Notes: generated from the sequence alone by a model not told the origin. DNA of 57,829 nucleotides from Acidimicrobium ferrooxidans (GCA_020723485.1 DYIU01000001.1:821850-879678); one strand, 5' to 3'; counted from the stretch's first letter, positions 19,902 to 40,601 are shown. Numbers and translations are program-made.

Positions 19902-21056
19902 TCAGCGGTCATTCAGGGTGGAGATGCCGAGCCTGCTCGCGTTCAGTATGCTGGGGCACGCTTCGGGCGGCCTTCCTACGAGAAAAGGCCGCATGTCGTC
20001 GTGAGGCCACGCTGGATATCCAAGCAGGACGCCGGCAACGTTCAGGGAGGCGAGGACCGCCATCCCCTCCCTGGTCCAGGTGGTAGCCGAACCCAGGTGA
20101 GGGACCAGAACCACGTTTTCCAGCTCGCTCAAACCGGGCTTCATGTCGGGCTCGTCTTCGAAGACGTCGAGACCGGCCTTGAACCCGGGATTAGCCCTGC
20201 AGTGGGCAACAAGGGCTTCTTCGTCTATCAATGGCCCGCGGCTGGTGTTCACGAGCACCGCGCTCTGCTTCATCTGCCCGAGCAGGGACGCGTCTATCAG
20301 GTGACGGGTACTCTCGTCGAGACAGGCGTGCAGGCTCACCACGTCCGCCTCGCGCAGTAGCTCAACAACGGTATCGGCCCTCCGGCAGGAGACCGGGCGC
20401 TCGCCGCGCGATGCGAGATAGCTCCCGTAGCCGGCAATGCATTCCTCGAGCGCCTCGTTGCGCACGACGTCGTAATAGACGAGGTCCATCTTCTGGCCTT
20501 CGACCATCATGCGGGCGTAAGCGGCTCCCACCCTTCCCACCCCGATGACGCCCAGCGTCTTGCGCCACAACAGCTCTCCCAGCAGGAGGTCCGGCAACCA
20601 TCCACGGAAGAGGCCCCGGCGCATGAACGCGTCTCCTTCGGCGACCCTTCGGGCGGCCGCGAAAGTCAGGGAGACCGCCATCTCAGCCGTCGTCTCGGTA
20701 AGGACGCCGGGAGTGTTTCCAACCGCGATGCCGTGCGAGGTTGCGCTTTCGATGTCGACGTTGTCATGGCCGACCGCGTAGTTGCAGTAGGCGCTCCCGC
20801 CCGCTGCCTTGAGCGCGGCGAACTGAGCCTCCCCCCACAGCTCCGTAAGCTGCCCGATGCAGCCGTCGCACCGACCGTCGATCGCCGCTACGATCTCTTC
20901 GGCGCCCAGGTGCTCGTCGCGGCTGTAGACCTCGACTGCGCAGCCGGCCCCGGAGAGGATCTCCAGCCACCGCCGGCCCGGCAGTTGCCTGGTCACTACC
21001 ACCCTGTGCCTGCCGCCCGCGTTGTAGAGCGTCCAGCCTTCGGAGAGCGAACCCAA
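19902..21056 (-). CDS. D-isomer-specific 2-hydroxyacid dehydrogenase
   Basis: A 384-residue NAD(P)-dependent dehydrogenase (SerA, glyoxylate/hydroxypyruvate reductase, D-lactate group). It has the split catalytic domain, the Rossmann motif GVIGVGRVGAAYARM with G172, G174 and G177, and the catalytic Arg, Glu and His in NTSRGPLIDEEAL, DVFEDEPDM and VPHLGSATTW. It is the last gene of operon B. TTG 21056 is 2 bases after the upstream stop with GAGGTG before it; a GTG 17 codons further in is possible. Relatives reduce a 2-oxo acid to a D-2-hydroxy acid. With VAO/GlcD-type flavoproteins encoded upstream, a 2-oxo/2-hydroxy acid pair is a plausible common theme. Confidence 0.8.
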   Translation of the reverse strand: MGSLSEGWTLYNAGGRHRVVVTRQLPGRRWLEILSGAGCAVEVYSRDEHLGAEEIVAAIDGRCDGCIGQLTELWGEAQFAALKAAGGSAYCNYAVGHDNVDIESATSHGIAVGNTPGVLTETTAEMAVSLTFAAARRVAEGDAFMRRGLFRGWLPDLLLGELLWRKTLGVIGVGRVGAAYARMMVEGQKMDLVYYDVVRNEALEECIAGYGSYLASRGERPVSCRRADTVVELLREADVVSLHACLDESTRHLIDASLLGQMKQSAVLVNTSRGPLIDEEALVAHCRANPGFKAGLDVFEDEPDMKPGLSELENVVLVPHLGSATTWTREGMAVLASLNVAGVLLGYPAWPHDDMRPFLVGRPPEACPSILNASRLGISTLNDR

Positions 21057-21057
21057 G

Positions 21058-22134
21058 CTACACCTCGAGCCGTTCCAGGAAAGTGCTTGCAGTCCCCCAG
21101 CCTCTTCCCGCGCGCGGTACCGCGGCGGACCGGAAATAGGCGGCGAGCAGGAGCGATGCCAGGCGGGGAGCGCCGCCTGCGCCGATGACGATGCCACCCG
21201 TCGCGTCCACGATGCTCCCCAGCGATGCCTCCTGCCGGTCAAGCTCTTCCGGCGACTCGCCTGCCAGCATGATGACACAGCTGTTGCCGAGGACCTTGCG
21301 GAGGAGGCTCCCCAGCGTTTCCGTCTCGGCCACCCGGGCAAAGAGGTTCGGCACCATGCAGTAGACCAGTGAGCCCAGGGACGCGAAGTTCGCAAGATAT
21401 CCGACGTGCTCGGCCTCGAGAGCCTCGTTTGTCCTCGCCTCGGCCTCGGTGTGGGGGAAGAGGCAGATGTAGAACCGTACGCTCTCAGGCACCTCCACCT
21501 CGGCGTCGAACAGCAGCCCGTCCATCTTTATCTCGCCCGGACCGGGCCACTCCTGGAGCCTGACGGTCCCGGAGGTCACTATCGCCCTGTCCGGAATGCC
21601 GCTCGCTACACCTTCTGCCGTTTCCACCCGCCCGTCGGGCAGGACGTACTCGACCGAGACCAGCTCGACGACACCGGCTTCCCCTCCTCCGATGTCTGAC
21701 AGCAGCGAGCCGCACGGCCCGTCCTGGGGCATGCGGACGTTCAGCCCGAGCTTCATGACCTCTGCCTGGAGCTGAGCGGCGCACACTCCCGGCTCGACGA
21801 CCGCCGTACGCTCCCCTGCGTCAACCGAGATGATGCGGTTCATCCGGTTCAGGTCGAGCTGAACCACATCATCGCTCATCGGCGCCCCGAACGCCCCCCA
21901 ACCGGTAGCATAGGACGAGCACCGAAGGCTGTTTTCGCCGCAGAGGCGGAGTACAGCCCGCACTTCGTCGACAGAGCCGGGAAGGACCACAACCGCCGGC
22001 CGCTTGAGCCAGATGTCAGGGTCCTCACCGGGCAGTGACTGCCAGACGTAGCTGTCGAGCACCGCCGGCTCGCGCGAGATGTTTTCCGCACCGACTATCT
22101 CCTCGAGCCCGGTGTAGATACCTGTCTCGATCAT
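21058..22134 (-). CDS. Shortened paralogue of the VAO-type flavoprotein
   Basis: A 358-residue relative of the 554-residue protein at 2897. Both share NxSREPAVxDxYxWQ, the PGSxxEVxA strand-helix, ATGWGAFGAPMSDDVVQLDL (STGWGAYSS in the long form), VEPxVCxAQLQAE and EYVLPDGR. This copy lacks about 40 residues after the GPCGSL loop, including most of the FAD-contacting GSTGALSGLGI segment, and about 160 C-terminal residues, ending at the position of AVPVVFRMGGQ in the long form. The next gene starts 2 bases on. It may be decaying, or it may have become a non-flavin scaffold. It starts by ATGA overlap with the CCG protein stop. The frame is intact, so it is not called a pseudogene outright. Confidence 0.65.
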   Translation of the reverse strand: MIETGIYTGLEEIVGAENISREPAVLDSYVWQSLPGEDPDIWLKRPAVVVLPGSVDEVRAVLRLCGENSLRCSSYATGWGAFGAPMSDDVVQLDLNRMNRIISVDAGERTAVVEPGVCAAQLQAEVMKLGLNVRMPQDGPCGSLLSDIGGGEAGVVELVSVEYVLPDGRVETAEGVASGIPDRAIVTSGTVRLQEWPGPGEIKMDGLLFDAEVEVPESVRFYICLFPHTEAEARTNEALEAEHVGYLANFASLGSLVYCMVPNLFARVAETETLGSLLRKVLGNSCVIMLAGESPEELDRQEASLGSIVDATGGIVIGAGGAPRLASLLLAAYFRSAAVPRAGRGWGTASTFLERLEV

Positions 22135-23420
22135 CCGCCAACCCCCTGTTCGGACGCGACCGCTGTTCCCGTCGCTCTCGACACGAGCTCCGACAGCTCG
22201 ATGATCTCCAGCTCTTTGCCATGTTCGGAAGCGCTGTCGCGAAAGGCCCGCACGCACCAGGGGCACGATGTAACCAGGGCCCGAGCGCCGGTAGCCTCTG
22301 CCTCCTCGAGCCGCTCAAGCGCGGTCCAGGAGCCGAACTCCGGGTAGGCATCGAGCACCCCGCCGCCGGCGCCGCAGCACCAGGAGTACTCCCGGATACG
22401 CTCCATTTCGACGAGCTCGAGTCCCGGGATCGCACGGAGCACCGCCCGCGGCTCGTCGTACACCCCCCGCCTGCCGGCCCTCTTCAACTGCTGTGGCCGG
22501 CCGAGCTTGTCCCCCTGCCATGGAACGAACGGCTCGCCCATGCGCCCGAGGTGGCACGGGTCGTGGTAAGTGACCTTTATCGGCACCGGCTCGGCGAGTT
22601 CGATGCGCCCGTCCGCCACAAGGTCGGCCAGGAACCCGCTCAGGTGGGCGACCTCCACTCCCGGGTCCTTGCCCATCTTCGGGTAGAGGTATCGCAGAGC
22701 GGAGAAGCAGTCCGAGCAGGCGGTCAGCAGAACCCCGGCGCCCGAGGCGTTTATCCTCGAGAGCATGTCGTCGGCGAAGTTCGCCGCCTCGCCCTGGTAT
22801 CCGAGCTCGTACACGCGCCCCCCGCAGCACGCCTCCTGCGCCCCCGCCACCCCGACCTCGATCCCAGCCTTGCGCAGCAGGTCCACCGCTCCCCTCAAGA
22901 CCGGCCACAGCTCCCTGTCGTACGAGTACCGGCAGCCAGCATGCAGCAGCACGTCCACGGTCTCCTGGTTGGTATCCTTCAGGCCGAGCCCTTCGGCCCA
23001 GTCGCCCCGCCGGTCGCGGGGCTCCCCGAAGACATTGTTCTCCTTCTTGAGGGCGTCGACGGTCATCATGTGGTCGGCTATGAGCTGCCCGCTCTCCACG
23101 CAGCTCGCGCGAAGCTCCATCAGCACCTCGGAAAGGTCTATGTCGTCGCGGTACACCTTGCAGGAGACGTCGCACGCGCCGCACATCTGGCAGCTGTAGA
23201 CTATCTCCGCGACCTGCTCGGTCAGCTCGCTCCTCTGTTTCAGGACCGAGAGCCCCATGGTCATCTTGCCTGAGCCCGAGTAGGGATGCGCGGTGAACCT
23301 GGCGAGCGACGGGCAGTTGCGCGCGAACCGCCAGCTCTTCACCTGGTTGAACGGCATCCACTTGCACGAAGAGCACCGCGAGCACGCGCTCATGTCATTT
23401 TCGTACTGTGCCAGCGCCAT
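22131..23420 (-). CDS. CCG-domain Fe-S oxidoreductase subunit, paralogue of the operon A copy
   Basis: A 429-residue homologue of the protein at 6510, similar along its whole length. It has the same N-terminal motif (CSRCSSCKWMPFNQVKSWRF, then NCPS), a ferredoxin motif CQMCGACDVSCKVY, and two CCG domains. Both are complete here: ACCGGRVYELGYQGE with CSDC, and HDPCHLGR, WCCGAGGG and CPWC. It should carry three to four clusters and link flavoprotein oxidation to a downstream acceptor. GGAGGGGG precedes the ATG, and the gene is 2 bases from the small helical protein upstream and overlaps the flavoprotein gene downstream. Since the flavoprotein here is truncated, it may work with a flavoprotein encoded elsewhere, such as operon A. 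Confidence 0.8.
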   Translation of the reverse strand: MALAQYENDMSACSRCSSCKWMPFNQVKSWRFARNCPSLARFTAHPYSGSGKMTMGLSVLKQRSELTEQVAEIVYSCQMCGACDVSCKVYRDDIDLSEVLMELRASCVESGQLIADHMMTVDALKKENNVFGEPRDRRGDWAEGLGLKDTNQETVDVLLHAGCRYSYDRELWPVLRGAVDLLRKAGIEVGVAGAQEACCGGRVYELGYQGEAANFADDMLSRINASGAGVLLTACSDCFSALRYLYPKMGKDPGVEVAHLSGFLADLVADGRIELAEPVPIKVTYHDPCHLGRMGEPFVPWQGDKLGRPQQLKRAGRRGVYDEPRAVLRAIPGLELVEMERIREYSWCCGAGGGVLDAYPEFGSWTALERLEEAEATGARALVTSCPWCVRAFRDSASEHGKELEIIELSELVSRATGTAVASEQGVGG

Positions 23421-23422
23421 TC

Positions 23423-23761
23423 CTACACCCCCTCCGCGCGGCCCTGGGCCGCTTCAACCGCCCGCTTGAGGCTCTCGGTGAGCATTGCCGCCAACCGATC
23501 GCGGGAATCGCCGCCGTCGAGGTTTATCGCCAGCCGGCTCACCAGCTCCCCGGCATCGAGCTCCGCAGCCCTGTCCTCAGCTTTGAGCACAGCTTCCTCC
23601 GGTACGCTATCGAGGAGTCCCAGAAGGTCTCCCATCCCGAGCCCGGTCTCATCGACGAGGTTGTCGAGCGCCCGGCCGGCGACGGCCACAAGGTCTTCGA
23701 GCAGACCTGTCTTTTGGCACTGCCGCAGCAGCTCGAACGTCGAGGCCGAATCAAATACCAT
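23423..23761 (-). CDS. Small helical protein, paralogue of 4632-4967
   Basis: A 112-residue acidic helical protein without Cys. It aligns with the operon A protein through FE at the start, the helix GLLEDLVAVAGRALDNLVDE, TGLGMGDLLGLLD, and EEAVLKAED. The C-terminal half differs: the operon A copy is hydrophobic, this one charged. ATG 23761 is preferred, 8 bases after GAGGAG; ATG 23767 and GTG 23770 in the same frame are too close to it. It overlaps the upstream lyase stop by a few bases. Co-occurrence with CCG Fe-S and VAO genes in both operons suggests a subunit of that complex. The function is unknown. Confidence 0.6.
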   Translation of the reverse strand: MVFDSASTFELLRQCQKTGLLEDLVAVAGRALDNLVDETGLGMGDLLGLLDSVPEEAVLKAEDRAAELDAGELVSRLAINLDGGDSRDRLAAMLTESLKRAVEAAQGRAEGV

Positions 23762-23766
23762 TTGCA

Positions 23767-24636
23767 TCACTCCTCGATCGCCGACCTGTACTTGCTGTCC
23801 ATCTCGAGGTAATAGGGAACCCTCAGGAATTCGTTCAACTCCCCGAATGACTGGGCCCAGTCGCTGAAATCACGCTGCCTGCCGTTCTCCTTGAAAGTGT
23901 TCAGCTCATCAATACAGGAGCTGATGGCGGCGCCCAGGCAGATGGCGGGGAAGATCGCGATGGAGAAGCCCATCTTCCTGAGGTCGTCGACCGGCAGGTT
24001 GGGGGTGCGCGGCGCCATGTTGACGAGGTGCGGCCGGTCCGGGAGGCGCCTGGGTATCTGTTCCATCTCCTCCACGGTCGTCGGAGCCTCGAGGAACAGC
24101 ACATCCGCACCTGCCTCGGCGTACAGCCGGCCGCGCGCGACCGCGTCCTCGAAGCCGTTGACCGCAATGGCGTCCGTTCGCGCGATGATGAGCATGTTCG
24201 GGTCCCTGCGGGCATCCACGGCGGCGCGTATCTTCGCCGCCATGTCCTCGGCGTCGATGACGCTCTTGCCGAGCATATGGCCGCAGCGCTTTGGCCAGAC
24301 CTGGTCTTCCATGTGGATGGCGCCCACTCCCGCCCTCTCGAACTCCTGGATGGTACGCGAGACGTTAACCGGGTTGCCGAAGCCCGTGTCGGCGTCGCCG
24401 ATGACCGGGATATCAACCGCCCGGGCCATCCTGGCCGCGTTCTCCACCATCTCCGTCATGGTGAGCAGTCCGAGGTCGGGATAGCCGAAGTTCATGCACG
24501 CGGTACCAAAGCCGGTCATGTAGACCCCCTGGAACCCCTGGGACTCGATTATCTTCGCGGTCATCGCGTTGAACGCTCCCGGCGCTACCACAAGCTCGCC
24601 CGCGTCGACCTTTTTCCTCAGTGTATCTTCAGCCAT
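23767..24636 (-). CDS. PEP-mutase/isocitrate-lyase superfamily carbon-carbon lyase
   Basis: A 289-residue member of the family holding methylisocitrate lyase (PrpB), 2,3-dimethylmalate lyase and oxaloacetate decarboxylase. Seen are the start APGAFNAMTAKIIE, the Mg-binding DADTGFG (D81, D83), IHMEDQ (E110, D111) and the catalytic loop K116-R-C-G-H120, which is intact and therefore indicates a lyase rather than a mutase. These enzymes cleave a substituted malate or isocitrate to pyruvate or glyoxylate plus a second acid. Aconitase-type hydratase subunits in the same operon suggest 2,3-dimethylmalate (to propionate and pyruvate), as in nicotinate fermentation. No citrate-synthase gene is present to support methylcitrate. 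The substrate remains inferred. Confidence 0.75.
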   Translation of the reverse strand: MAEDTLRKKVDAGELVVAPGAFNAMTAKIIESQGFQGVYMTGFGTACMNFGYPDLGLLTMTEMVENAARMARAVDIPVIGDADTGFGNPVNVSRTIQEFERAGVGAIHMEDQVWPKRCGHMLGKSVIDAEDMAAKIRAAVDARRDPNMLIIARTDAIAVNGFEDAVARGRLYAEAGADVLFLEAPTTVEEMEQIPRRLPDRPHLVNMAPRTPNLPVDDLRKMGFSIAIFPAICLGAAISSCIDELNTFKENGRQRDFSDWAQSFGELNEFLRVPYYLEMDSKYRSAIEE

Positions 24637-24672
24637 GCTCTTCCTTTCTCCGTCCCGCGCGCCGCGGCCGTC

Positions 24673-25848
24673 CTAATCGCAGGAGCACTTGATCGGCTCG
24701 TTCTTCACCGTCGTCGCCAGGCACTTGTTGCAGTTCACGCACGACACCTGGGAGACTCCCTTCCTCAGCTCATCCACAAGACGCAGCTCCCTGATGAAGG
24801 GCCGCGACATGGATATCATGTCCACAGAGCCGTCCTCGAGCACCTTCTCCATGTACTCGGCGTGCCGCAGGCCGCCGACCAGCGAGAGCTTCATCCGGGG
24901 CACCGCCGCCCTTATCGTGCGCGCCGCTTCCAGGTTGTACCCCTCCTCGTAGTCGAACTTACCGACCATCCTTCGCATCACCAGCCAGCCGGCCGGCCGC
25001 TTGGCCGGCGGCAGGGCTCCCACCATCTCTTTCAAGGGCAGGTCGCCGCGCCAGATGTTCATGTTGGAGAATGACCCGGTGCCGCACGTAGTCTCCACGC
25101 AGTCGATTCCCATCTCGGAGAGCCATGCGGTGTAGCGGGCGGCGAGCTCCGGGGTTATGCCCCGCTGCGGGGTGAAGTCGTTCACGCTCAACTTGATCAT
25201 CAGGAATGAGGAGGCCGGCTTAAGATCGAGCCACCTGTTGAAGACCTCGCGCACGAACCGGAACCGGTTAGCGTCGCTGCCGCCCCATTCGTCGTCGCGC
25301 CGGTTGAAGAACGGCGAGAGGAACTGGTTCACCAGGAACCCGTGGCCGCCGTGGAGCTGAAGCCCGTCCACTCCCAGCTCGAACGCGCGGCGGGCCGCCT
25401 CCGCGTAATCGTCTATGGTGCTCTCTATCTCCGCCGGGCTCATGACCCGAGGGCGGGCCAGGAACATCGGGTCGAGCTTGCCCTTTGATGGGGCGACGCA
25501 CCTCTGCCCGGTGACCTTCCGAAACGTCTGCCTTCCGGCGTGCTGGATCTGGAAGGCCACCTTGCTCCCGTTCGCGTGGATGATATCGACGAGCCTGCCC
25601 AACCCGGGGAGGAACCTGTCATCACTTATTGACGCGGAGTGCGTGCCGAACCTCCCGACGTCGTTGACGTGCATGGTGCCCGGCACGATGAGGCCGATGC
25701 CGGTGCTCGCCAGCACGCTGTACCTCTCGATGTGCCTGTCGGTGATGTTCCCTTCTTCATCGGCCATGCTCTCCATGGTTGCCGAGTGCATGATACGGTT
25801 TGTGAGCTTGACCTCCCCCAGCTTCACCGGCTCGAACAGCCTGGACAT
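24673..25848 (-). CDS. Old-yellow-enzyme-family flavin reductase with Fe-S tail
   Basis: A 391-residue FMN TIM-barrel protein of the OYE/2,4-dienoyl-CoA reductase family. Barrel signatures are FEPVKLGEVKLTNRI at the start, FQIQHAGRQ, and HGGHGFLVNQFLSPFFNRR. The C-terminus has the cluster motif C370-x2-C373-x2-C376-x11-C388 (CVNCNKCLATTVKNEPIKC), as in bacterial dienoyl-CoA reductase, trimethylamine dehydrogenase and clostridial enoate reductase. Unlike those 640-730 residue enzymes the protein ends there, without the FAD/NAD domain, so electrons must come from another protein, perhaps a ferredoxin or Fe-S subunit of this operon. Reduction of an activated C=C bond is the expected reaction. 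Confidence 0.8.
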   Translation of the reverse strand: MSRLFEPVKLGEVKLTNRIMHSATMESMADEEGNITDRHIERYSVLASTGIGLIVPGTMHVNDVGRFGTHSASISDDRFLPGLGRLVDIIHANGSKVAFQIQHAGRQTFRKVTGQRCVAPSKGKLDPMFLARPRVMSPAEIESTIDDYAEAARRAFELGVDGLQLHGGHGFLVNQFLSPFFNRRDDEWGGSDANRFRFVREVFNRWLDLKPASSFLMIKLSVNDFTPQRGITPELAARYTAWLSEMGIDCVETTCGTGSFSNMNIWRGDLPLKEMVGALPPAKRPAGWLVMRRMVGKFDYEEGYNLEAARTIRAAVPRMKLSLVGGLRHAEYMEKVLEDGSVDMISMSRPFIRELRLVDELRKGVSQVSCVNCNKCLATTVKNEPIKCSCD

Positions 25849-25879
25849 CGGAAATTCCTCCCTGTCAGTTCATGACCCG

Positions 25880-26728
25880 CTAGGTATAGAAGTCGGGCAG
25901 CAGGTCGAGCCCGGGCAGCTGGTCCGGGTCGTGCCCGTATATGACGCGCGTTTCAGGCAGCTCCTCGAGCAGCGACATGATGCTCTTGAGGCTGGCCAAC
26001 GCGGCCACGTAATCCCCCTTGGGCGGTATACCCTCTTCGACGTTGGCCTTGCGGTGAGCCGCGTCAAAAGTGAGCAGGATGGGGCCTTTGCGCGCGTTCA
26101 GCAGGACCGCGACGTTGCCCCTGGTGTGCCCCGCCGCCCTCAGCACGAACACGGAACCGTCGGAGAAGAAGTCGCACGCCTGGCGGAACGGCCCGAAGCT
26201 CCCGTCGTAAACAAGCGGCCTGACCTCCAGGCCCTCGAGGAACCCCTTGATGTAGCCACCCGCCGTCCCCAGGGGCGAACGGGCCGCGGAAAGCTCTGCC
26301 TCGTCTACATATATCGCCGAACCCCGGCCGAATTTCGGCAGGCCGGAGGCGTGGTCCAGGTGCAGGTGCGACATTATGACGTAAGGTATGTCCGACGCGG
26401 AGACTCCGAGCGTAGCGAGCTGGCTCACCACGTCGCCGCCCTTTTCCGCTTTGGTTTTGACCACCCTTCCGAGCAGCGGGCCGAAGTTGCCTAGAGAGCT
26501 TTCGCAGAAGCAGGCATCGAGCCCCGTGTCCATGAGCGTCCAGCCCTTCTCGGGGTGCTCGAGCAGGAACGCCAGCACGGGATTGAACCTCTCGTCCTTC
26601 GGCATCGACTTGAACCGGGGGCTCTTCTTGTTGAAATGGATGTTACCGCTCATATGCACGGACCCCGTTTTCATCACGTAGAGCTTCAGGTCGTGCGGGT
26701 CGTCGAGCAGGCCTCGCATGTCAGTCAC
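25880..26728 (-). CDS. Metallo-beta-lactamase-fold hydrolase, lactonase-like
   Basis: A 282-residue MBL-fold protein. The metal motif is SHLHLDHASG (HxHxDH, about residues 117-126), with further ligands in AAGHTRGNVAVLL and LTFDAAH, and a final GHDP. The order and spacing, and the TLMDTGLD strand before the motif, resemble N-acyl-homoserine-lactonase-type proteins; many relatives hydrolyse unrelated lactones or thioesters. GTG 26728 is chosen: AGGAGG is 6 bases upstream and the codon overlaps the stop of the hydratase small subunit (GTGA). The in-frame ATG 4 residues later is too far from the ribosome site. In this operon lactone or thioester hydrolysis is more likely than quorum quenching. 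Confidence 0.75.
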   Translation of the reverse strand: MTDMRGLLDDPHDLKLYVMKTGSVHMSGNIHFNKKSPRFKSMPKDERFNPVLAFLLEHPEKGWTLMDTGLDACFCESSLGNFGPLLGRVVKTKAEKGGDVVSQLATLGVSASDIPYVIMSHLHLDHASGLPKFGRGSAIYVDEAELSAARSPLGTAGGYIKGFLEGLEVRPLVYDGSFGPFRQACDFFSDGSVFVLRAAGHTRGNVAVLLNARKGPILLTFDAAHRKANVEEGIPPKGDYVAALASLKSIMSLLEELPETRVIYGHDPDQLPGLDLLPDFYT

Positions 26729-27225
26729 TGAGCACCTCCTGTCTTCTCCTTGAGCAGCTCCAGGATGCCGCCCCGCGTGATTATCTCGAGCATCTCGGGG
26801 GAAAGGCGCTCGCCGCTCATTACGGCACCGCCGGCAACGTTGGTCACGCTTGCTTTCTCCACGTCTATCGAGGCAGTGTCCCCGTCGGCGAAAGCTCCCG
26901 CGACATCCTTGCAGGCCAGTACCGGCAGGCCGATTGCGATAGCCGACCGGAAGAAGATGCGACCGAAAGACTCGGCGACCACACAGCTTATCCCCATCGC
27001 CTTGAGCACCTGGGGCGCCTGCTCCCTGGAGGAGCCGCACCCGAAGTTGCCGCCCGCGACTATCACGTCGCCGGGTCTCACCTCGGCGCGGAACTCCGGC
27101 CTGACGCTCTCGAGCGCATGCTCCGCGATCTCTTCGATAGGCGCGTCGAGCAGCCTGCCGGGGCAGATGACGTCGGTATCCAGGTTGTCTCCCAATAACC
27201 AAACCCGGCCCTGGAATTGCTCCAT
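26725..27225 (-). CDS. Aconitase-family hydratase small subunit (LeuD/DmdB-like)
   Basis: A 166-residue swivelling-domain subunit. It shows GDNLDTDVICPGRLL at the start and the substrate-recognition loop GGNFGCGSSREQAPQVLK, followed by SFGRIFFRSAIAIGLPVL. The large subunit is encoded immediately upstream with an 11-base gap. Family members hydrate or dehydrate isopropylmalate, citraconate, homoaconitate or dimethylmaleate. The lyase in this operon acts on a malate derivative, so dimethylmaleate or another alkylmaleate is a fair candidate; ordinary leucine synthesis is unlikely because leuA and leuB are absent. ATG 27225 has AAGGAGGG at the correct distance; the longer frame to 27420 is a shadow of the large-subunit gene. 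Confidence 0.8.
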   Translation of the reverse strand: MEQFQGRVWLLGDNLDTDVICPGRLLDAPIEEIAEHALESVRPEFRAEVRPGDVIVAGGNFGCGSSREQAPQVLKAMGISCVVAESFGRIFFRSAIAIGLPVLACKDVAGAFADGDTASIDVEKASVTNVAGGAVMSGERLSPEMLEIITRGGILELLKEKTGGAQ

Positions 27226-27236
27226 CGGCCCTCCTT

Positions 27237-28490
27237 TTACAAGTCTCTCGGGTCTGCGATATACCCGGCCGCCGCCGAGGCCGCCACGGTCGCCGGGGAC
27301 GCAAGGTAAACTCCGGCCTTGTCGCTGCCCATCCGCCCTATGAAGTTGCGGTTCGTGCTCGCGACGCAGGCCTCGTCCTGGGCGAGAAGGCCTCCGTGCG
27401 AACCGAAGCACGGCCCGCATCCCGGGTTCATCACGATCGCGCCGGCGTCGACGAGGTCGGCGAGCGTCCCATCATCAATTGCCAGCCTGTACACGGCCCA
27501 GGATGCTGGGTAAACGAGCATGCGCACGTCCGGGTGAACGCTCCTGCCCTTCAGGAGCAGCGCGGCCGCCTGAAGGTCCTCGAGCCGGCCGTTGGTGCAG
27601 GAGCCGAGCAGCGCCTGGTGGATCGGTGTCCTCTCGAGCGACGAGACCGGCTGGACGTTCTCGACGGTATGGGGGAGTGCCACCTGGGGCTCGAGCGACG
27701 TGAGATCCAAGGAGTACTCGGCGAAGACACGGGCCGATTCGTCGAACACCAGCGGGTCATACCCGCCGACGGGAAGCCCGTGCAGGAACTCTTCGGCCCG
27801 GGCGTCGGTCTCGAAGAAGCAGAACTTGGCGCCGATCTCCATCGACATGTTGCTGATGGTCATACGGCTCGCCATGGTCATGGCCCCAGCGCCGGTCCCC
27901 GAGAACTCGGCCGCCCTGTACTGAGCCACCTCGGCCCCGTGGTCGCCGGCAATCTTGAGTATCACGTCCTTTGACATCACAAGCGGCGGAAGGTCTCCCT
28001 CCAGGTGGAACCGCACGGTCTCGGGCACTCTGAACCAGAGCCTGCCGGTGGCGAGCGCGTACGCCATCTCAGTGAAGCCGATCCCGCAGGAGGCGGCCCC
28101 GAGGGCGCCGTACGTGCACGTGTGGGAATCGGTGCCGACGATGAGCTCGCCAGGGAGCGCGTGTCCGCGCTCCATCATTACCTGGTGGGCGACGCCGTAC
28201 CGCCCGTCGTAGAAGTTCGGCAGGCCGAACGCGGACACCGCCCCTCTCACTATCTTCTGTATCATGGCTGCCCGCTCGGTGGGCGGAGGCACGTAGTGGT
28301 CCATTATCACCACGACCCGCTCCGGGTCGAACACCTTCGAGATGCCTGCCGCGCCGAGGTTCATGGCGACCGCAGCGAATCCCTCGTTGCACATCGCCTT
28401 GTCTATGTCCGCCGTCACGTAGTCCCCCGGCGCCACCGTGTCCCGCCCGGAGGCCCTCGCCAGTATCCTTTCTGCTGAGGTCATCGCCAT
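27237..28490 (-). CDS. Aconitase-family hydratase large subunit (LeuC/DmdA-like)
   Basis: A 417-residue 4Fe-4S hydro-lyase subunit of the shorter HACN/LeuC2 type found with separate small subunits. The cluster ligands are C298 (LGSCTNGR), C358 and C361 (NPGCGPCFG). Other conserved parts are DHYVPPP (about 64-70), GTDSHTCTYGALGA (about 119-132) and SNMSMEIGAK. It catalyses reversible addition of water to a carboxylated alkene; specificity depends on the small subunit. In operon B it precedes the small subunit, MBL, OYE and lyase genes with gaps of 37 bases or fewer. 2,3-Dimethylmalate or a related alkylmalate is my preferred product, by analogy with DmdAB; 3-isopropylmalate is the alternative. 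Confidence 0.8.
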   Translation of the reverse strand: MAMTSAERILARASGRDTVAPGDYVTADIDKAMCNEGFAAVAMNLGAAGISKVFDPERVVVIMDHYVPPPTERAAMIQKIVRGAVSAFGLPNFYDGRYGVAHQVMMERGHALPGELIVGTDSHTCTYGALGAASCGIGFTEMAYALATGRLWFRVPETVRFHLEGDLPPLVMSKDVILKIAGDHGAEVAQYRAAEFSGTGAGAMTMASRMTISNMSMEIGAKFCFFETDARAEEFLHGLPVGGYDPLVFDESARVFAEYSLDLTSLEPQVALPHTVENVQPVSSLERTPIHQALLGSCTNGRLEDLQAAALLLKGRSVHPDVRMLVYPASWAVYRLAIDDGTLADLVDAGAIVMNPGCGPCFGSHGGLLAQDEACVASTNRNFIGRMGSDKAGVYLASPATVAASAAAGYIADPRDL

Positions 28491-28524
28491 CAGAAACGGT
28501 CTCCTTCCACCGCCGGCTCAGCGA

Positions 28525-29526
28525 CTACGAGCCGTACTTCTTTCGCAGCGCACGTATGTCCACGGGCTCCAGCTCCGCTTCATCCCTCACCAGCTTCACC
28601 GCGTTTTCCGGGCACCTGTCCACGCACACTCCGCAGCCCATGCACTTGGCGAAGTCCACGACGGCCTTCTCCGCCTCCTCGTCCACCGTCATGGCCAGGA
28701 AGTGGCACGTCTCCTCGCATATCGCGCAGCCGCTGCACGCGTCCGCGTCAAGGACCGCCTTGTAACCGGAGGGCACCACGCAGGGCACCGCCCCGCCGAA
28801 GGCATTATGGGCGAGCATCCCCACGCAGCAGCACTTGCAGCAGTTGCAGATCGAGTAGAAGTTGCGGTTGAGCTCCTTGCGCCAGAACGCCAGTTGCGGC
28901 ACGCCGAACTCATGGCACTGCTCCAGCACGTGGACCGCTTCATCCTGGGAGCACTTCCGGAACCTGGGGTCTTCCGCGATGACCGTCGCCCACGGCTCAC
29001 CGATGAAGAAGCAGCAGTCGATGCCAAGCTCGCCCTCGAGGTCCTGCCCCATCGGCTCGCAGTAGTCCGCGCGGGTCAGCCGGCATGCGCACTTTCCAAG
29101 GGCGATGGCGTCGGGGTTCTCCAGGATGATGCTGTTCGCCTGGGTAAACGGGATGACGTTGCTGATATTGCGCAGGTCGATCGGCTCCTGGATGGTGACA
29201 AGCTGCTTGGCGTCATCCAGCGTGACCACCTTGCTCGCGTAAGGTATGGTCTCCTTGCTGAAGAGGTCGAGCCTCACCGACTCCAGGTACGCCTGCATGA
29301 AGACCTCGAGGGTCTCGTCCAGCTCCTCTGGAGGGGCCTTGGTGGTCGCCAGTCCCGCCAGTTCGGATAGCCGGTAGACCATGTTGAAGTGGTGCTTCAG
29401 GTACATGTAGGCGACGAAGAAGTTGTTTTTCTCGTCCACACCGTACGATTCCAGAAGCCTCTGGATGGACGGGTCGAGCGTCACCCCGAACTGGTCCGCC
29501 GTCACGGCCGTTTCTGTTTCATCCAT
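28525..29526 (-). CDS. Fe-S protein with CxCCxCCC motif and C-terminal ferredoxin domain
   Basis: A 333-residue protein. The N-terminal 140 residues are helical with no Cys. Then come KCACRLTRADYC and GIDCCFFIGEP, the dense cluster CNCCKCCCVGM, and a C-terminal ferredoxin domain with two motifs (CSGCAICEETC and CMGCGVCVDRCPE). The 270-residue protein at 43567 has the same order: CPCRFGEQC, GCLLMGDS, CFCCECCC and a two-cluster ferredoxin. Similar proteins are annotated only as 4Fe-4S binding proteins. It probably transfers electrons between the Mo/W enzyme and another operon B enzyme such as the OYE-type reductase, but this is inferred from position. GGGGGGAT precedes the ATG. Confidence 0.7.
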   Translation of the reverse strand: MDETETAVTADQFGVTLDPSIQRLLESYGVDEKNNFFVAYMYLKHHFNMVYRLSELAGLATTKAPPEELDETLEVFMQAYLESVRLDLFSKETIPYASKVVTLDDAKQLVTIQEPIDLRNISNVIPFTQANSIILENPDAIALGKCACRLTRADYCEPMGQDLEGELGIDCCFFIGEPWATVIAEDPRFRKCSQDEAVHVLEQCHEFGVPQLAFWRKELNRNFYSICNCCKCCCVGMLAHNAFGGAVPCVVPSGYKAVLDADACSGCAICEETCHFLAMTVDEEAEKAVVDFAKCMGCGVCVDRCPENAVKLVRDEAELEPVDIRALRKKYGS

Positions 29527-29568
29527 TCTGATCCCCCCTCGGATCCTGTCTGCCCCCAGGGCGGGCTG

Positions 29569-30168
29569 CTACTTGACGTAGAAGACCGACGGATCGGTCC
29601 GCTTCTCGGGGAAGAGCTGGAAGCCTTTCCGGCTCTCGATGAGCCTGGAGACCTCGCTCTCCGGGTCGTCGATGTCGCCGAACTCCCGGCAGCTCGTCGG
29701 GCATATCTCCACGCAGGCGGGCACGTCACCCTCGCGCAGCCGCTCGATACAGAAGTCGCACTTCTGCACCACGCCCTCGTGCCGCAGCAGCTCGCGCTTG
29801 CCGTACGGTATCTCGGTGTCCGGGAAGTAGAAGCGGCGCTTGGAGACGTAGGTCCTCGCCGGGTACGGGCAGTTCGCGATGCACGCCCGGCAGCCCGCGC
29901 ACTTGTCGTAATCGATGAGTACCAGGCCCTCCTCTGTCTTGTGCGAGGCGCCGGTGGGGCAGACCGCCACGCAGAGCGGGTCGGAGCAGTGGTAGCACAG
30001 CACCGGCATGAACAACCTGGTCACCTGGGGGTACTTGCCCCACTCCTTCTCGAGCACCCTGCCCCAGAACACGCCCGGCTGGGTGCCGTGTTCGGCCTTG
30101 CAGGCCATGGTGCAGGCGTTGCACCCGATGCAGAGCTTGAGGTCAATGACCATCCCGTACCTGGCCAT
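29569..30168 (-). CDS. Four-cluster ferredoxin subunit of the Mo/W oxidoreductase (PsrB/NrfC/DmsB type)
   Basis: A 199-residue electron-transfer subunit with the usual four cysteine clusters: CIGCNACTMACK (C13, C16, C19, C23), CYHCSDPLCVAVCP, CAGCRACIANCPYPAR and CDFCIERL...CVEICPT. It lacks a Tat signal and a membrane anchor, and no PsrC/NrfD-type membrane subunit is encoded nearby, so the complex with the catalytic subunit is probably cytoplasmic. It is encoded directly behind that subunit (1-base gap) and preceded by AAGGAGGGGG. It should carry electrons between the molybdopterin site and a soluble partner. Confidence 0.85.
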   Translation of the reverse strand: MARYGMVIDLKLCIGCNACTMACKAEHGTQPGVFWGRVLEKEWGKYPQVTRLFMPVLCYHCSDPLCVAVCPTGASHKTEEGLVLIDYDKCAGCRACIANCPYPARTYVSKRRFYFPDTEIPYGKRELLRHEGVVQKCDFCIERLREGDVPACVEICPTSCREFGDIDDPESEVSRLIESRKGFQLFPEKRTDPSVFYVK

Positions 30169-30169
30169 C

Positions 30170-32803
30170 TCAGTCCCCCTCCTTGTAGATCTTCACCTTC
30201 GCGCAGGTATCGATCTGGCCGCTGACCGTTTCCACCATGTCCCAGTCGAAGGCGATGAGCGCGTTGTGATTGACGCCCTTCCCCCGGGCGATAGCCTTTT
30301 GTCCGGCCCACTGGCCGAGGTGCCCGCCCAGCGTGCCGACCACCTGGGGATGGATGCATTCGGTCAACCGCACCGTGCCCTTTACCTTGCCGGTCCTGGA
30401 CTCCACGCAGACCGTGTCGCCGTCCTCGATGCCCTTCTCCGCGGCGGTCTCCGAGTTCAGAAGGATGTTGTAATCGAGGCGGTTGCGCGAGCAGATATCG
30501 CTTATCCATGGGTTGTCGGCGCTGACCGAATGGCTGTGCAGCGCGAGCCTCGAGCTGGTCAGGAAGAGGTCGTACTCCTCGTCGGTATCCTCGCGGGCCG
30601 GGCAGGGGGTCCACGTGGGCAGGGGATTGTAGGACGAGACGTCCCACCAGTCCATGCCCAGCTCCCGCGTTACCTTCTCCACCTGTTTGCCCACGTCGAT
30701 GAGCTGCTCCATGTAGATAGGCGCGCGCGCGTCGTTCATGGGGCTCGGGTACGACTCCTCCAGGCTCTTCTCACCCAGGTTGAGCACCGGCATCTCCGGC
30801 GTGAAGAGCTCAGGCGTGACCTCCTTGTCCGCTATCCAGGCGAACATCTCGGCCTGCCTCATGCATATCTCCCTGACCGAGTACTTGCGGTCGGGCTCCA
30901 GCGCGAGACCATCGATCATGAGAAGGCCGGTACCCACGTTCACGACATCGTTGAACTCGGCCAGCAGCCCGAGGCGGTCGGCGATGTCTATCATCACCTC
31001 GATCCAGCTGCGCACCTCCCCGGGGGCCTCCACCACGGGCTGGACTATCTGGTAGTACCAGTCGCCCGGCCCCGGCTTCTGGAAGCCCGCCGGCGCGTTC
31101 GGCGGGAAGAACCAGTACCGCTCGAAATCGTGCGCCTCGGGGAGGATGATGTCCGCGAACTCGAGCGTCTCGTCTATCTTGATGGCGAACCCCACTATGA
31201 AGTCGAGGGCCTTGAGCATCTCGGCCACTTTCTCGGGGTCGGGAACGCTGATCATCGGGTTCGTGCGGCAGGTTATCATCACCTCCGGCTTGTAAGGGAT
31301 GTTGAACTTCTCGGGGTCGGTGATGGTGAATATCGGCATTATGGGTATGAAGCCGGTCACCGGCAGGAGCTCTCGCAGGCTCAGGTGCTCGGGAGGGGAG
31401 ACCTCCCTTGGAGGGTAAGGCGAGATGAAGCAGGCGAATGAGTCCATCCCGATGAAGAGCTTCGTGTGCTGGTCGGTGGTGAGCATCCCGTCCCTGCCTG
31501 GGAACATGTTCCAGTAGTTGAAGGGCCCGTGGGGGTTCGTGCCGATGAGCCCGCCGGGGGCGTTCAGGTTCCCCACCATCGTGTTGAGCAGCATCAGCGA
31601 CAGGCAGGTGTGCCAGCTGTTCTTGTGGTGCGAGGCCCCACGCTTCCACTCGATGGTCGACGGCCTCAGGGGCAGGGTTTCCCCCTTCATGTTGATTGTG
31701 GCGCCGATGGTCGCAGCCTCGCCGAACTCTTTTGCCAGGTGCCGGATGGTCTCAACCGGCACCGTGGTGATGCGAGAGACCTCCTCGAGCGGGTAATTCT
31801 CGCGTATGTGCGTCATCAGGACCTCGAAGGCGGGCCTGCACTTGACTCCGTCCACCTCGAACTCGCCCTCCAGGGCGAAGTCGCCGACGTCCGGCGCGTC
31901 ATACTCCTTTGCGATGCCTTCGGCCGCGTCCCACACCAGGGGCTTCTCGTCCTCCCCTCCGCGGACGTAATGGCCGTCCGGGCCGATAAGGTACGGTGCG
32001 TTGGTCTTTTTCTTGAGGAACTCCGCGTCGTAGATGCCGAGCTCATTCACCAGCGCGTTCACCATCCCCAGCGCGAGGGCCCCGTCGGTTCCCGGCAGTA
32101 TCGGCACCCACTCGTCCGCCTTGGCGGCCGCGTGCCCGCAGATCGGGTCGATGACAACCAGCTTCGCGCCCCTCCTGCGGGCCTCGGCCATGTCCGCTAT
32201 GGCCTCGATGGGATTGTTGTTCACCCCGTGGCCCAGCTGGGAGCCGCACAGGATGATGTGGTTGCAGTGGGCAAGGTCGATCTCCGAGTTTATTGCCCCG
32301 ATCGTCTGGTAGAAGATGGTGTGCAGGCCGTTCCCGCAGGTGACGGTGTAGAACTGGTCGTTGGGGGTCCCGAAGGCGGCCGCGAACATCTGGGCGATAT
32401 GGAAGTTGCACAGGTCGAACGTGTTGATGACGAGTTTGCGGGGGTCCTCCTCGCGGACCTTCCTGAGCTTCTCCACCACTATGTCCAGCGCGTCGTCCCA
32501 GCTTATCTCCTTCCACCCCGGGTCAACGCCTATGCCCTTCTCGGGGTTCGTCCGGACGAGCGGCTTCAGGACGCGGTTAGGGTTGTAGAGGTCAGCTATC
32601 CTGGCCTTGGACTTGCCGCATATCTTGCCCTTCGTGCTCGGGACGTCCGGATCGCCCTTTACATCGACCACCCGGCCGTCCTTCCTGCGCACCCTGATGC
32701 CGCATATGTTGAAGCACGCGTTACAGGAGGTGACGACCCACTCGTCGTCCTCCTTCACCCCAACAGCGTTGAGCTTCTCGTCTATCGGGGAATCCTGGCC
32801 CAT
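30170..32803 (-). CDS. Molybdopterin (Mo/W) oxidoreductase, DMSO-reductase family
   Basis: The catalytic subunit, 877 residues, has the full domain set. The N-terminal 4Fe-4S site uses C27, C30, C34 and C62 (TSCNACFNICGI, KGKICGKS). The two pterin-binding halves follow (for example ILCGSQLGHGVNNNP, IDPICGHAAAKADEWVPILPGTDGAL, and near the C-terminus SSRLALHSHSVSADNPW). C156 in FYTVTCGNG is at about the place where the protein ligand to the metal occurs. There is no Tat signal, so it stays in the cytoplasm, unlike most respiratory members of the family. Only an electron-transfer subunit and Fe-S protein accompany it. Enzymes of this branch include hydroxylases, dehydroxylases and acetylene hydratase; the reaction here is unknown. 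Confidence 0.85.
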   Translation of the reverse strand: MGQDSPIDEKLNAVGVKEDDEWVVTSCNACFNICGIRVRRKDGRVVDVKGDPDVPSTKGKICGKSKARIADLYNPNRVLKPLVRTNPEKGIGVDPGWKEISWDDALDIVVEKLRKVREEDPRKLVINTFDLCNFHIAQMFAAAFGTPNDQFYTVTCGNGLHTIFYQTIGAINSEIDLAHCNHIILCGSQLGHGVNNNPIEAIADMAEARRRGAKLVVIDPICGHAAAKADEWVPILPGTDGALALGMVNALVNELGIYDAEFLKKKTNAPYLIGPDGHYVRGGEDEKPLVWDAAEGIAKEYDAPDVGDFALEGEFEVDGVKCRPAFEVLMTHIRENYPLEEVSRITTVPVETIRHLAKEFGEAATIGATINMKGETLPLRPSTIEWKRGASHHKNSWHTCLSLMLLNTMVGNLNAPGGLIGTNPHGPFNYWNMFPGRDGMLTTDQHTKLFIGMDSFACFISPYPPREVSPPEHLSLRELLPVTGFIPIMPIFTITDPEKFNIPYKPEVMITCRTNPMISVPDPEKVAEMLKALDFIVGFAIKIDETLEFADIILPEAHDFERYWFFPPNAPAGFQKPGPGDWYYQIVQPVVEAPGEVRSWIEVMIDIADRLGLLAEFNDVVNVGTGLLMIDGLALEPDRKYSVREICMRQAEMFAWIADKEVTPELFTPEMPVLNLGEKSLEESYPSPMNDARAPIYMEQLIDVGKQVEKVTRELGMDWWDVSSYNPLPTWTPCPAREDTDEEYDLFLTSSRLALHSHSVSADNPWISDICSRNRLDYNILLNSETAAEKGIEDGDTVCVESRTGKVKGTVRLTECIHPQVVGTLGGHLGQWAGQKAIARGKGVNHNALIAFDWDMVETVSGQIDTCAKVKIYKEGD

Positions 32804-32867
32804 TGCTCATCCTCCTGTATCCTTGACCGCCGGCCGCCGGGGAGCCCGGCCGCATCGAACGGAAGTG

Positions 32868-33431
32868 CTAGATCCCGAACTCCTCGTTCAGCACACCGAA
32901 GACCCCGCGGTACTCTTCCCGCTCCTCGGGGCTCATCTCGTCGGGGTATCTGGTGTCGACCGTGCCGACGAGGTCGACCATCCTCTTCGCGGCCGCGACC
33001 TGCCTGACCACGGTTGCCATGTCGCCCTTGAGCTTGAGCTTGCCCTGCATCATCCCCCTGACCGTGTCGATCTCGCCGGACATGACTCCCTTCCATTTGT
33101 CGTAGTCCCCGGTAATGACGTAGGCGCCGGCCTGTCCGACCCTGGGCGGCACCAGGCGCATCGAGCGGCAGTCCCCGTGCCAGAGGTCCATCAGCAGGTG
33201 GATGTCCCGGTCGATCCCGATCTCCGGGTTGGCCCTGATGTGGATGGTGATGGAGCCCTCCCAGGTCTTTCCGGCCTCCTTGTAGGCGTCATCGCCCTGG
33301 ACGATCTGCTCGAGCGCCGAGACCCACTCGGGGGTCGCGAGCATGTAGGGGGTGGATTGCTCGTTCCTGCGTTTATCGACCAGCTCCAGGTAGGCGTTCT
33401 CCCATTCGTCCGTTCCGTAGGTGTGAGGCAT
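32868..33431 (-). CDS. SCP2-like sterol/lipid carrier domain protein
   Basis: A 187-residue protein; the C-terminal half looks like an SCP2 domain. It has a strand WEGSITIHIRANPEIG, AGAYVITGDYDKWKGVMSGE and MMQGKLKLKGDMATVVR, which is the family's closing pattern (G-K-hydrophobic-K-G-D). Such domains bind acyl-CoA, fatty acids or other hydrophobic ligands. It is the first gene of operon B, directly behind the operator and promoter at 33511-33569, so it may present or store the hydrophobic substrate. ATG 33431 is preferred to the in-frame ATG 33437 because GGAGGG abuts the latter. Confidence 0.65.
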   Translation of the reverse strand: MPHTYGTDEWENAYLELVDKRRNEQSTPYMLATPEWVSALEQIVQGDDAYKEAGKTWEGSITIHIRANPEIGIDRDIHLLMDLWHGDCRSMRLVPPRVGQAGAYVITGDYDKWKGVMSGEIDTVRGMMQGKLKLKGDMATVVRQVAAAKRMVDLVGTVDTRYPDEMSPEEREEYRGVFGVLNEEFGI

Positions 33432-33510
33432 GCTCATCCCTCCTCGAGAGGCCGGCCGACCCGGCGGCTGCGATTGTGCCCGCAGAAGAGGCTGGGTTGA
33501 GGTACCGCCA

Positions 33511-33531
33511 AAGTAAACTGCGGGTATACTT
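33511..33531. promoter_or_regulatory. Operator-like inverted repeat upstream of operon B
   Basis: AAGTAAAC-TGCGG-GTATACTT: 8-base arms (7 of 8 complementary) and a 5-base spacer. Read on the minus strand as TAAAGTATACCCGCAGTTTA it agrees at 17 of 20 positions with the site at 34358 before the TetR gene. A shared site before regulator and operon suggests that the TetR protein at 33582 controls both. Confidence 0.65.
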
Positions 33532-33538
33532 TAAACGA

Positions 33539-33569
33539 TATACTATTAGTATAGTTTTGGACCTGTCAA
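33539..33569 (-). promoter_or_regulatory. Promoter of operon B with palindrome over the -10
   Basis: On the minus strand, TTGACA (33569 to 33564), an 18-base spacer and TAGTAT. The -10 is embedded in the perfect palindrome TATACT-ATT-AGTATA at 33539-33553, so a bound repressor would block it. The GGCCTTGACA flank is shared with the promoter at 16391. Confidence 0.6.
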
Positions 33570-33581
33570 GGCCTCAGACAG

Positions 33582-34316
33582 TCATTTTTTCGATTGGGAT
33601 TTCCGTGCGCCGGCGGGCCCGGCTCCGGAGCTCTTGGCGGTACGTCCGGTGGGTCGCTCCTCCTGGAACAGGCCCCCATCGAGCAGCTGCGTAAAAGCGG
33701 CCTGGAGCTGCCTGGCATCGATGTTCTCTATCTCGAAACGCCTCTCCTTGTGGGCGTGAACGATTATCCCCTTGTTCACTGCGGACATGAGATGGACGAT
33801 GAGCTTGGGATCGAGGTCTCTCAGGTAGGCTTCGTCCTGTCCCGCCACTACGAGCTCGAGAGACGACTGCATCATCGTTGCCGTCCACCGCTGTACATGC
33901 TGCAGCAGCTCCTCCGGCAGGTGCCCGTCGGCCTCTCCCGAGTCGAGCATCCAGTAGAGCCACATGAACTTCTCGTTCTTCCTGGTGAATTCGAAGAGCG
34001 CGTTCAGCACCGCAAGCAGCCGCTCCGGCACGGACCCCGGGCCTGACGCGGCTTTCGATATCGCCGCCGTAAGCCGCTGGAGGTATTCGTCGAAGACGTG
34101 CACGAAGAGCGCCAGCTTTGACGGGTAGTAGCTGTAGAGGGTCCGCTTCGTGACGCCGGCCAGGTGGGCTATTTCGTCAACGCTCGCGGCGGCGTATCCC
34201 TTTTCGAGGAATATCTTCTTGGAAGCCTTTTCGATAGACGCTTTCTTCTCGTTCTTCCGGAGCTCGCGCTGGCTCATCGGAGCGGCGGGCTTCGAGGGCT
34301 TCCGGGCGGCCTCCAT
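33582..34316 (-). CDS. TetR/AcrR-family regulator, probable repressor of operon B
   Basis: A 244-residue regulator. After a basic lead of about 25 residues, the DNA-binding domain reads IEKASKKIFLEKGYAAASVD, then EIAHLAGVTKRTLYSYYPSK. The helical ligand domain follows, with a Lys/Ser/Gly-rich tail. ATG 34316 has GGAGGAA at 8 bases; the frame further upstream is a non-coding extension. It lies upstream of operon B in the same direction. Near-identical operator-like sites sit before each, and the site before its own gene fills the space between -35 and -10, which implies autorepression. Confidence 0.8.
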   Translation of the reverse strand: MEAARKPSKPAAPMSQRELRKNEKKASIEKASKKIFLEKGYAAASVDEIAHLAGVTKRTLYSYYPSKLALFVHVFDEYLQRLTAAISKAASGPGSVPERLLAVLNALFEFTRKNEKFMWLYWMLDSGEADGHLPEELLQHVQRWTATMMQSSLELVVAGQDEAYLRDLDPKLIVHLMSAVNKGIIVHAHKERRFEIENIDARQLQAAFTQLLDGGLFQEERPTGRTAKSSGAGPAGARKSQSKK

Positions 34317-34356: not shown

Positions 34357-34384
34357 ATACTATACTGGCGGTATACTTTAGCAA
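34357..34384 (-). promoter_or_regulatory. TetR gene promoter with operator in the spacer
   Basis: On the minus strand, TTGCTA (34384 to 34379), a 16-base spacer and TAGTAT (34362 to 34357). The operator-like repeat TACTATAC-TGGCG-GTATACTT (34358-34378) covers the spacer and most of the -10. A second TTGACA at 34415 to 34410 has only a poor -10 (TACCAT) behind it. Confidence 0.6.
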
Positions 34385-34562
34385 GGATGGTAGACCCGGG
34401 GCCGGCCCCTGTCAAGGACCTGGATCCAAACTGCTCGCATTTACCGGGTCCAAACGGCCCCGGCGGTGATAGAATGTCGGTGCCGGAGCTCATCCGGCGG
34501 CAGCAACTTCGGACAATGTCGGCCTGGAAAGCGGGAACACCTAGTCTCAGGGGGTGCGGCAG

Positions 34563-39679: not shown

Positions 39680-39832
39680 CTTCCTCCTCGACGGATTCCT
39701 GCCGTTCCAGCTTACCGCACTGTCGCCCGCGGGGCACCCGGGTGTCACGGGGGGAGTCCCACCCGGTTGCGCGGCAGGCCCGTTTGATACATGATTCAGC
39801 GTACGGGCAAACCGGGCAAGGGAGGCGCTCAC

Positions 39833-40570: not shown

Positions 40571-40601
40571 AGAAGCTCCGCTGAGATTCCGGGGGGGAGA
40601 A

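Follow-up and report, generated by a model that had tools for sequence, protein, structure and literature searches.

The closest described counterparts of the locus reported here are dimethylmaleate hydratase (DmdAB) and 2,3-dimethylmalate lyase (Dml), which act in the final two steps of nicotinate fermentation in Eubacterium barkeri, and the methylisocitrate lyase (PrpB) of the methylcitrate pathway. In E. barkeri, the PrpF-family isomerase Mii converts methylitaconate into dimethylmaleate (PMC4720413). The structure of a Pseudomonas PrpB shows the acids of the Mg site, the KRCGH motif, and the pyruvate-binding residues (PMC11982470). We analyzed a stretch of 57,829 nucleotides from Acidimicrobium ferrooxidans (GCA_020723485.1 DYIU01000001.1:821850-879678), here termed the window, for a 13-gene operon that contains a LeuC/LeuD-type hydratase, a C-C lyase, and several redox enzymes. 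The host is an uncultured actinobacterium with a genome of 3.36 Mb that is about 95% complete, so that a small risk attaches to any single absence reported below. The last two steps of the operon appear to resemble those of nicotinate fermentation, and the remainder appears to match no known pathway; a literature search retrieved nothing on this gene set.

Best supported is a core in which the hydratase would hydrate an alkylmaleate and the lyase would cleave the product to pyruvate and a carboxylate. We give about an even chance to the wider proposal that the operon encodes a TetR-switched, inducible, cytoplasmic catabolic route built on these two reactions and independent of coenzyme A (CoA).

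Organization and conservation of the operon

The operon extends from position 33437 to 19902 on the minus strand and comprises 13 co-directional genes transcribed in the order g1 to g13. A co-directional tetR gene, located beyond the end at 33431 given in an initial annotation, is part of the locus. The genes are as follows, with orthologs referring to STE_163 (G017), a second genome of the class.

33582..34316, minus strand: tetR, TetR-family regulator heading the locus (Pfam TetR_N; 66% identical ortholog at the equivalent place)
32868..33437, minus strand: g1, SCP2-like small protein, accessory (Pfam SCP2, 1.3e-9)
30170..32803, minus strand: g2, large subunit of a soluble Mo/W-bisPGD oxidoreductase, 877 aa (Pfam/NCBIfam; 77% ortholog)
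29569..30168, minus strand: g3, four-cluster Fe-S partner subunit of the ArrB/DsrO/PhsB type, 199 aa (Pfam/NCBIfam; 88% ortholog)
28525..29526, minus strand: g4, 333-aa protein with two [4Fe-4S] motifs, accessory (Pfam)
27237..28490, minus strand: g5, LeuC/DmdA-type hydratase large subunit (NCBIfam NF001614, 515 bits; cut-off 385)
26725..27225, minus strand: g6, LeuD/DmdB-type small subunit with a shortened specificity loop, GRLLDAPIEE (TIGR02087, 183 bits; cut-off 109)
25880..26728, minus strand: g7, lactonase-like hydrolase of the metallo-beta-lactamase (MBL) fold, HLHLDH motif intact (Pfam/NCBIfam)
24673..25848, minus strand: g8, OYE barrel with a C-terminal CxxCxxC..C motif and without an NAD(P)H domain, 391 aa (Pfam; the ortholog ends alike)
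23767..24636, minus strand: g9, C-C lyase of the isocitrate lyase (ICL)/phosphoenolpyruvate (PEP) mutase superfamily (Pfam/NCBIfam, trees, residue comparison)
23423..23770, minus strand: g10, conserved 115-aa protein, probably all-helical, no family (Pfam search; ortholog present)
22131..23420, minus strand: g11, CCG Fe-S electron-transfer protein, GlpC/TfrB-like (Pfam/NCBIfam)
21058..22134, minus strand: g12, short FAD_binding_4 protein, 358 aa (Pfam/NCBIfam)
19902..21056, minus strand: g13, D-2-hydroxyacid dehydrogenase, glyoxylate-reductase-like (Pfam/NCBIfam)

From g1 to g13, the intergenic gaps measure 64, 1, 42, 34, 11, -4, 31, 36, -4, 2, -4, and 1 bp. The initial annotation had described a co-directional 13-gene operon with a longest gap of 63 bases. 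The operon itself and its short gaps stand, all 13 genes being on the minus strand, but the exact values do not, since the longest gap is 64 bp and the first in-frame ATG of g1 lies at 33437, with a second at 33431. Its family calls (LeuC/LeuD, PEP-mutase-family lyase, Fe-S OYE, MBL, soluble Mo/W enzyme, and SCP2) were reproduced with Pfam and NCBIfam. These same searches detected no CoA ligase, CoA transferase, or acyl-CoA dehydrogenase family among the 13 genes, which argues for a CoA-independent route. The Rfam search of the window returned no match.

The identities of the orthologs in STE_163 range from 49% (the 115-aa protein, g10) to 88% (the Fe-S subunit, g3). They are located at two contig ends, one with the TetR regulator, Mo enzyme, Fe-S subunit, LeuC, LeuD, MBL, and OYE genes and the other with the OYE, lyase, 115-aa protein, CCG, FAD, and dehydrogenase genes; because the OYE gene overlaps both ends, the locus is probably contiguous. 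SCP2 (g1) and the second ferredoxin-like protein (g4) are absent from this locus, which suggests that they are dispensable parts. Since the order of all other genes and the operator described below are conserved, the arrangement is not due to chance.

A pattern scan of the genome collection with the OYE (g8), sensitive to close relatives only, recovered STE_163 as one further carrier and a distant match (25%) in Amycolatopsis. Among 31 genomes of the class, Mo enzymes of the g2 type were found in the window genome and STE_163 only, at the threshold used, and the same two genomes were the only ones among 396 of the phylum with a lyase scoring >310 bits.

The hydratase and its recurrent association with a lyase

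Both hydratase subunits scored above the cut-offs of their subfamily models, and the model matched by g6 names dimethylmaleate hydratase (LeuD/DmdB), a match at the family level. The specificity loop of g6 is one residue shorter than those of the solved isopropylmalate isomerases and homoaconitase, and its length equals that of several catabolic plasmid LeuDs. It is also shorter than that of a LeuD encoded on contig C1 of the window genome. This, together with the gene neighborhoods, led us to reject an isopropylmalate isomerase of leucine biosynthesis: the genome holds three LeuC-type proteins, namely, g5 and two on contig C1, and it is the latter two that adjoin a LeuA-like and a LeuB-like gene, respectively, which would leave g5/g6 free for another role.

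Six other records also hold LeuCD together with a lyase of the ICL/PEP-mutase superfamily, and both the lyases and the surroundings vary among them. These are the annotated records of Skermanella mucosa, Burkholderia plantarii, and Ancylobacter pratisalsi, the unannotated records of Cupriavidus sp. EM10 and Paraburkholderia sp. PREW-6R, which were read by tblastn, and the actinobacterium G340. As in the window operon, LeuC, LeuD, and the lyase lie inside one small cluster in these plasmids and in G340; unlike in the window operon, transporters or CoA enzymes replace the redox genes in the annotated records. The lyases fall in several lineages of the tree, which suggests repeated, separate assembly of the pair.

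Several of these surroundings deserve mention. On the Skermanella mucosa plasmid (L109), a tripartite tricarboxylate transporter is directly joined to leuC-leuD-lyase, an arrangement well suited to testing what such pairs act on. In G340 (L071), inspection of the translations by eye placed the pair next to genes for a hydantoinase/oxoprolinase-like protein and an ABC transporter. Furthermore, a plasmid of Peribacillus frigoritolerans (L113) carries in one run a CaiB-type CoA transferase, LeuCD, an HMG-CoA-lyase-type lyase, an Asp/Glu racemase, and a tartrate dehydrogenase.

The lyase differs from methylisocitrate lyases

The closest solved relatives of g9 are, in this order, the petal death protein, 2,3-dimethylmalate lyase, and methylisocitrate lyases. 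In trees of 39 and 43 rows, a clade of 18 rows (support 100/98) united the PrpB proteins of E. coli and Burkholderia with lyases that have prpC or prpD neighbors, and g9 and its STE_163 ortholog, the window pair, were placed outside this PrpB clade. We defined a signature of this clade, Thr212-Glu213-Phe214-Gly215 (TEFG) plus Arg241 in E. coli numbering, that is present in 18/18 members. The window pair has neither element: Ala-Pro followed by a two-residue deletion occupies the TEFG site, the deletion in g9 falling after Asn206-Met-Ala-Pro209, and position 241 is Gly or Ala.

The residues that g9 does share with PrpB, a member of the same superfamily, are the KRCGH motif, the acids aligned with E. 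coli Asp58, Asp85, Asp87, and Glu115, and Phe181 and Pro230. The latter two align with Phe186 and Pro236 of E. coli PrpB, which we take to form the pocket for the methyl group of pyruvate. The KRCGH motif and the two pocket-aligned residues are also those expected of a 2,3-dimethylmalate lyase. The conservation of these catalytic and pocket-aligned residues suggests pyruvate as a product of g9. Structures predicted from two-row alignments for g9 (predicted local distance difference test score [pLDDT] 60) and g10 (pLDDT 62) were too poor for a fold search.

It is very improbable that g9 is a methylisocitrate lyase and LeuCD a methylaconitate hydratase of a methylcitrate pathway. The best NCBIfam match of g9 is indeed prpB (TIGR02317), but its score of 278.9 bits is below the cut-off of 354.4, and an approximately unbiased (AU) test left a position on the PrpB side unrejected (PrpB-side union, p 0.29), although g9 lies outside the clade and lacks its signature. 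Furthermore, no match to citrate synthase (PF00285), and hence no PrpC, was found in the window genome (G000), nor was there one in STE_163. The combination that would have spoken against the initial annotation, a lyase grouping with methylisocitrate lyases plus a complete methylcitrate pathway, was therefore not observed.

The AU tests rejected neither the grouping of the window pair with dimethylmalate lyase and oxaloacetate hydrolase (p 0.41) nor that with the nearest actinobacterial group (p 0.17). The initial annotation had seen in LeuCD and g9 a dimethylmaleate hydratase/dimethylmalate lyase pair. A hydratase-lyase pair of catabolic, free-acid character is retained here; the methylated substrate and the dimethylmalate identity are not, considering this AU result, the deviant loop of g9, and the fact that dimethylmaleate and citraconate fit the hydratase equally well.

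Comparison with nicotinate fermentation

With DmdAB/Dml of nicotinate fermentation, the operon shares the enzyme families, encoded in one operon, free-acid chemistry, and predicted pyruvate release, a likeness set at the family level. A complete fermentation in the E. barkeri manner nevertheless has hardly any probability, and we rejected it, in agreement with the initial annotation, which had noted that the mutase and isomerase of that route are not in the operon. No match to the PrpF/Mii family (PF04303) was obtained in the window genome, where positive controls worked. Family searches of the genome revealed no candidate for methyleneglutarate mutase besides two methylmalonyl-type mutases, although the E. 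barkeri enzyme may lie outside the families searched. Among 11 long B12-binding proteins inspected, the B12 domain is followed by a radical-SAM-type Cys motif in 9; the other two are a methyltransferase-corrinoid fusion and a weak match that lacks this motif. Nicotinate dehydrogenase, 6-hydroxynicotinate reductase, and enamidase had no family match in the operon, to which this search was confined. Conversely, the Mo enzyme, OYE, MBL, CCG/FAD, and dehydrogenase genes and the loop deletion of the lyase set the operon apart from nicotinate fermentation.

Redox enzymes and the proposed route

The Molybdopterin, Fe4S4, and dinucleotide-binding domains of g2 identify it as a member of the dimethyl sulfoxide (DMSO) reductase (MopB) superfamily; it did not reach the cut-off of any NCBIfam family listed. 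It contains a [4Fe-4S] motif (Cys27/30/34/62), and Cys156 aligns with a Cys of Thermus thiosulfate reductase, here taken as the metal ligand; no twin-arginine signal was seen by eye. Like soluble Mo/W bisPGD enzymes that have a single Fe-S subunit, g2/g3 combine a large and a multi-cluster subunit with no membrane anchor gene; the best full-length relatives found are about 30% identical and adjoin membrane-anchor genes. Pyrogallol transhydroxylase and acetylene hydratase were rejected as identities of g2 because the matches were weak, and plasmid-borne proteins were rejected as close relatives, the best full-length one being about 30% identical and in an unrelated, membrane-anchored setting. 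In g8, only the OYE barrel scored above the cut-off, the Cys motif was present, and no NAD(P)H domain was matched; the lack of this C-terminal domain excluded 2-enoate/2,4-dienoyl-CoA reductase. Paralogs of g11, about 35% identical, are encoded on contig C7. This contig harbors, between 62 and 102 kb (L116, L117), these CCG Fe-S proteins with FAD-binding neighbors, methylmalonyl-type mutase genes, and a MeaB-like GTPase (by eye).

In the proposed route, a substrate that is probably cyclic or unsaturated would be converted into an alkyl-substituted maleate by three enzymes, namely, the Mo/W enzyme together with its Fe-S subunit, the Fe-S OYE that lacks an NADH domain, and the lactonase-like MBL. 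LeuCD would add water to yield a 2-alkyl- or 2,3-dialkylmalate, and g9 would cleave this alkylmalate into pyruvate and a short carboxylate, which would be propionate in the case of dimethylmalate and acetate in that of citramalate. The methylmalonyl-type mutases encoded in the genome could take up propionate. The g13 dehydrogenase and the CCG/FAD pair would handle a 2-hydroxy/2-oxo acid and its electrons. The first three enzymes were placed upstream by elimination, and the latter were assigned to the 2-hydroxy/2-oxo acid because of family resemblance; the substrates, the order of steps, and repressor binding are all predictions from sequence.

A number of observations weigh against this proposal. 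Gly215, present in 41/41 other lyases compared, is deleted in the window pair, and with this residue and the usual Glu missing, the substrate of g9 may differ from all characterized ones. The roles of g7 and g8 are deduced from family resemblance alone, and the Mo enzyme could form a separate redox module. Moreover, no transporter gene was detected in the operon or marked by the operator in the window genome.

A more far-reaching version of the route, which we regard as less likely than not, is an undescribed anaerobic pathway in which the Mo/W enzyme, the ferredoxin-type OYE, and the lactonase would open a substituted ring, conceivably that of a dialkylfuran or of a maleimide derived from a tetrapyrrole, to give the alkylmaleate. 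Pyruvate and a carboxylate would then be formed from it by LeuCD and a lyase of a new subfamily, whose active-site loop has been rebuilt.

The equal fit of citraconate raises the alternative of an itaconate- or mesaconate-type route, in which LeuCD would convert citraconate to citramalate and the lyase would release acetate and pyruvate. In accordance, the closest solved LeuD to g6 is the small subunit of an isopropylmalate/citramalate isomerase (3vba), and the Peribacillus operon combines a similar short-loop LeuCD with the CoA transferase, HMG-CoA-lyase-type lyase, and Asp/Glu racemase. However, this alternative leaves the Mo enzyme, OYE, and MBL unexplained, and the lack of a PrpF-type isomerase in the genome also argues against it, so that we consider it unlikely. 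Somewhat less probable still are two functions on one transcript, a Mo/Fe-S/OYE/CCG redox module and a separate organic-acid hydratase-lyase module. That the LeuCD-lyase pair stands alone in other records and that CCG/FAD pairs occur in other contexts of the window genome would agree with such a division, but the two modules are joined by overlapping or nearly touching genes, and the core genes have all been kept together in the second genome.

Predicted regulation of the locus

Returning to the TetR-switched route, the putative operator is the dyad AAAGTATACYnnnAGTATAnT, with two copies in the gap between tetR and g1 and a third before tetR. The sites are as follows.

34359..34379, minus strand: operator copy upstream of tetR, AAAGTATACCGCCAGTATAGT, 0 mismatches (pattern search)
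33537..33557, minus strand: operator copy in the tetR-g1 gap, overlapping the promoter (pattern search)
33512..33532, minus strand: second operator copy in the tetR-g1 gap (pattern search)
33540..33569, minus strand: sigma-70-like promoter TTGACA-N18-TAGTAT ahead of the operon (10/12 consensus matches)

The pattern gave 6 matches in the window (three sites, both strands) versus 0.02 expected from shuffles, and across the whole genome it matched only at those three sites. The control pattern read backward gave 6 matches in the genome when up to 3 mismatches were allowed, so that it is the sites with few mismatches that are informative. The corresponding gap in STE_163 contains two dyad copies and a similar TTGACA, operator and promoter overlapping in both genomes. 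Judged by these predicted repressor sites, the operon looks like a self-contained regulon in the window genome.

In STE_163, further sites precede two genes, one for a short-chain dehydrogenase/reductase and one for a 320-aa protein with no family match; neither gene points to the substrate. The former (L134:10038-10853) lies behind an operator copy about 1 kb upstream of tetR. The latter (L133:10828-11790), which has operator-like sites and a TTGACA promoter ahead of it, has no Pfam match and no counterpart in the window genome. Elsewhere in the window, positions 34554-37754 and 37835-40717 encode two long proteins that match DUF5719; one of them also contains 5'-nucleotidase domains, the other a peptidase M23 domain.

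Significance

Annotation would place the recurring LeuCD-lyase module in leucine biosynthesis or the methylcitrate cycle; the analysis sets it apart from both. The TetR operator, the signature of the lyase subfamily, and an expressible enzyme pair offer handles for finding its substrate. If the upstream part does act on a ring compound, the operon would add a route of anaerobic degradation.

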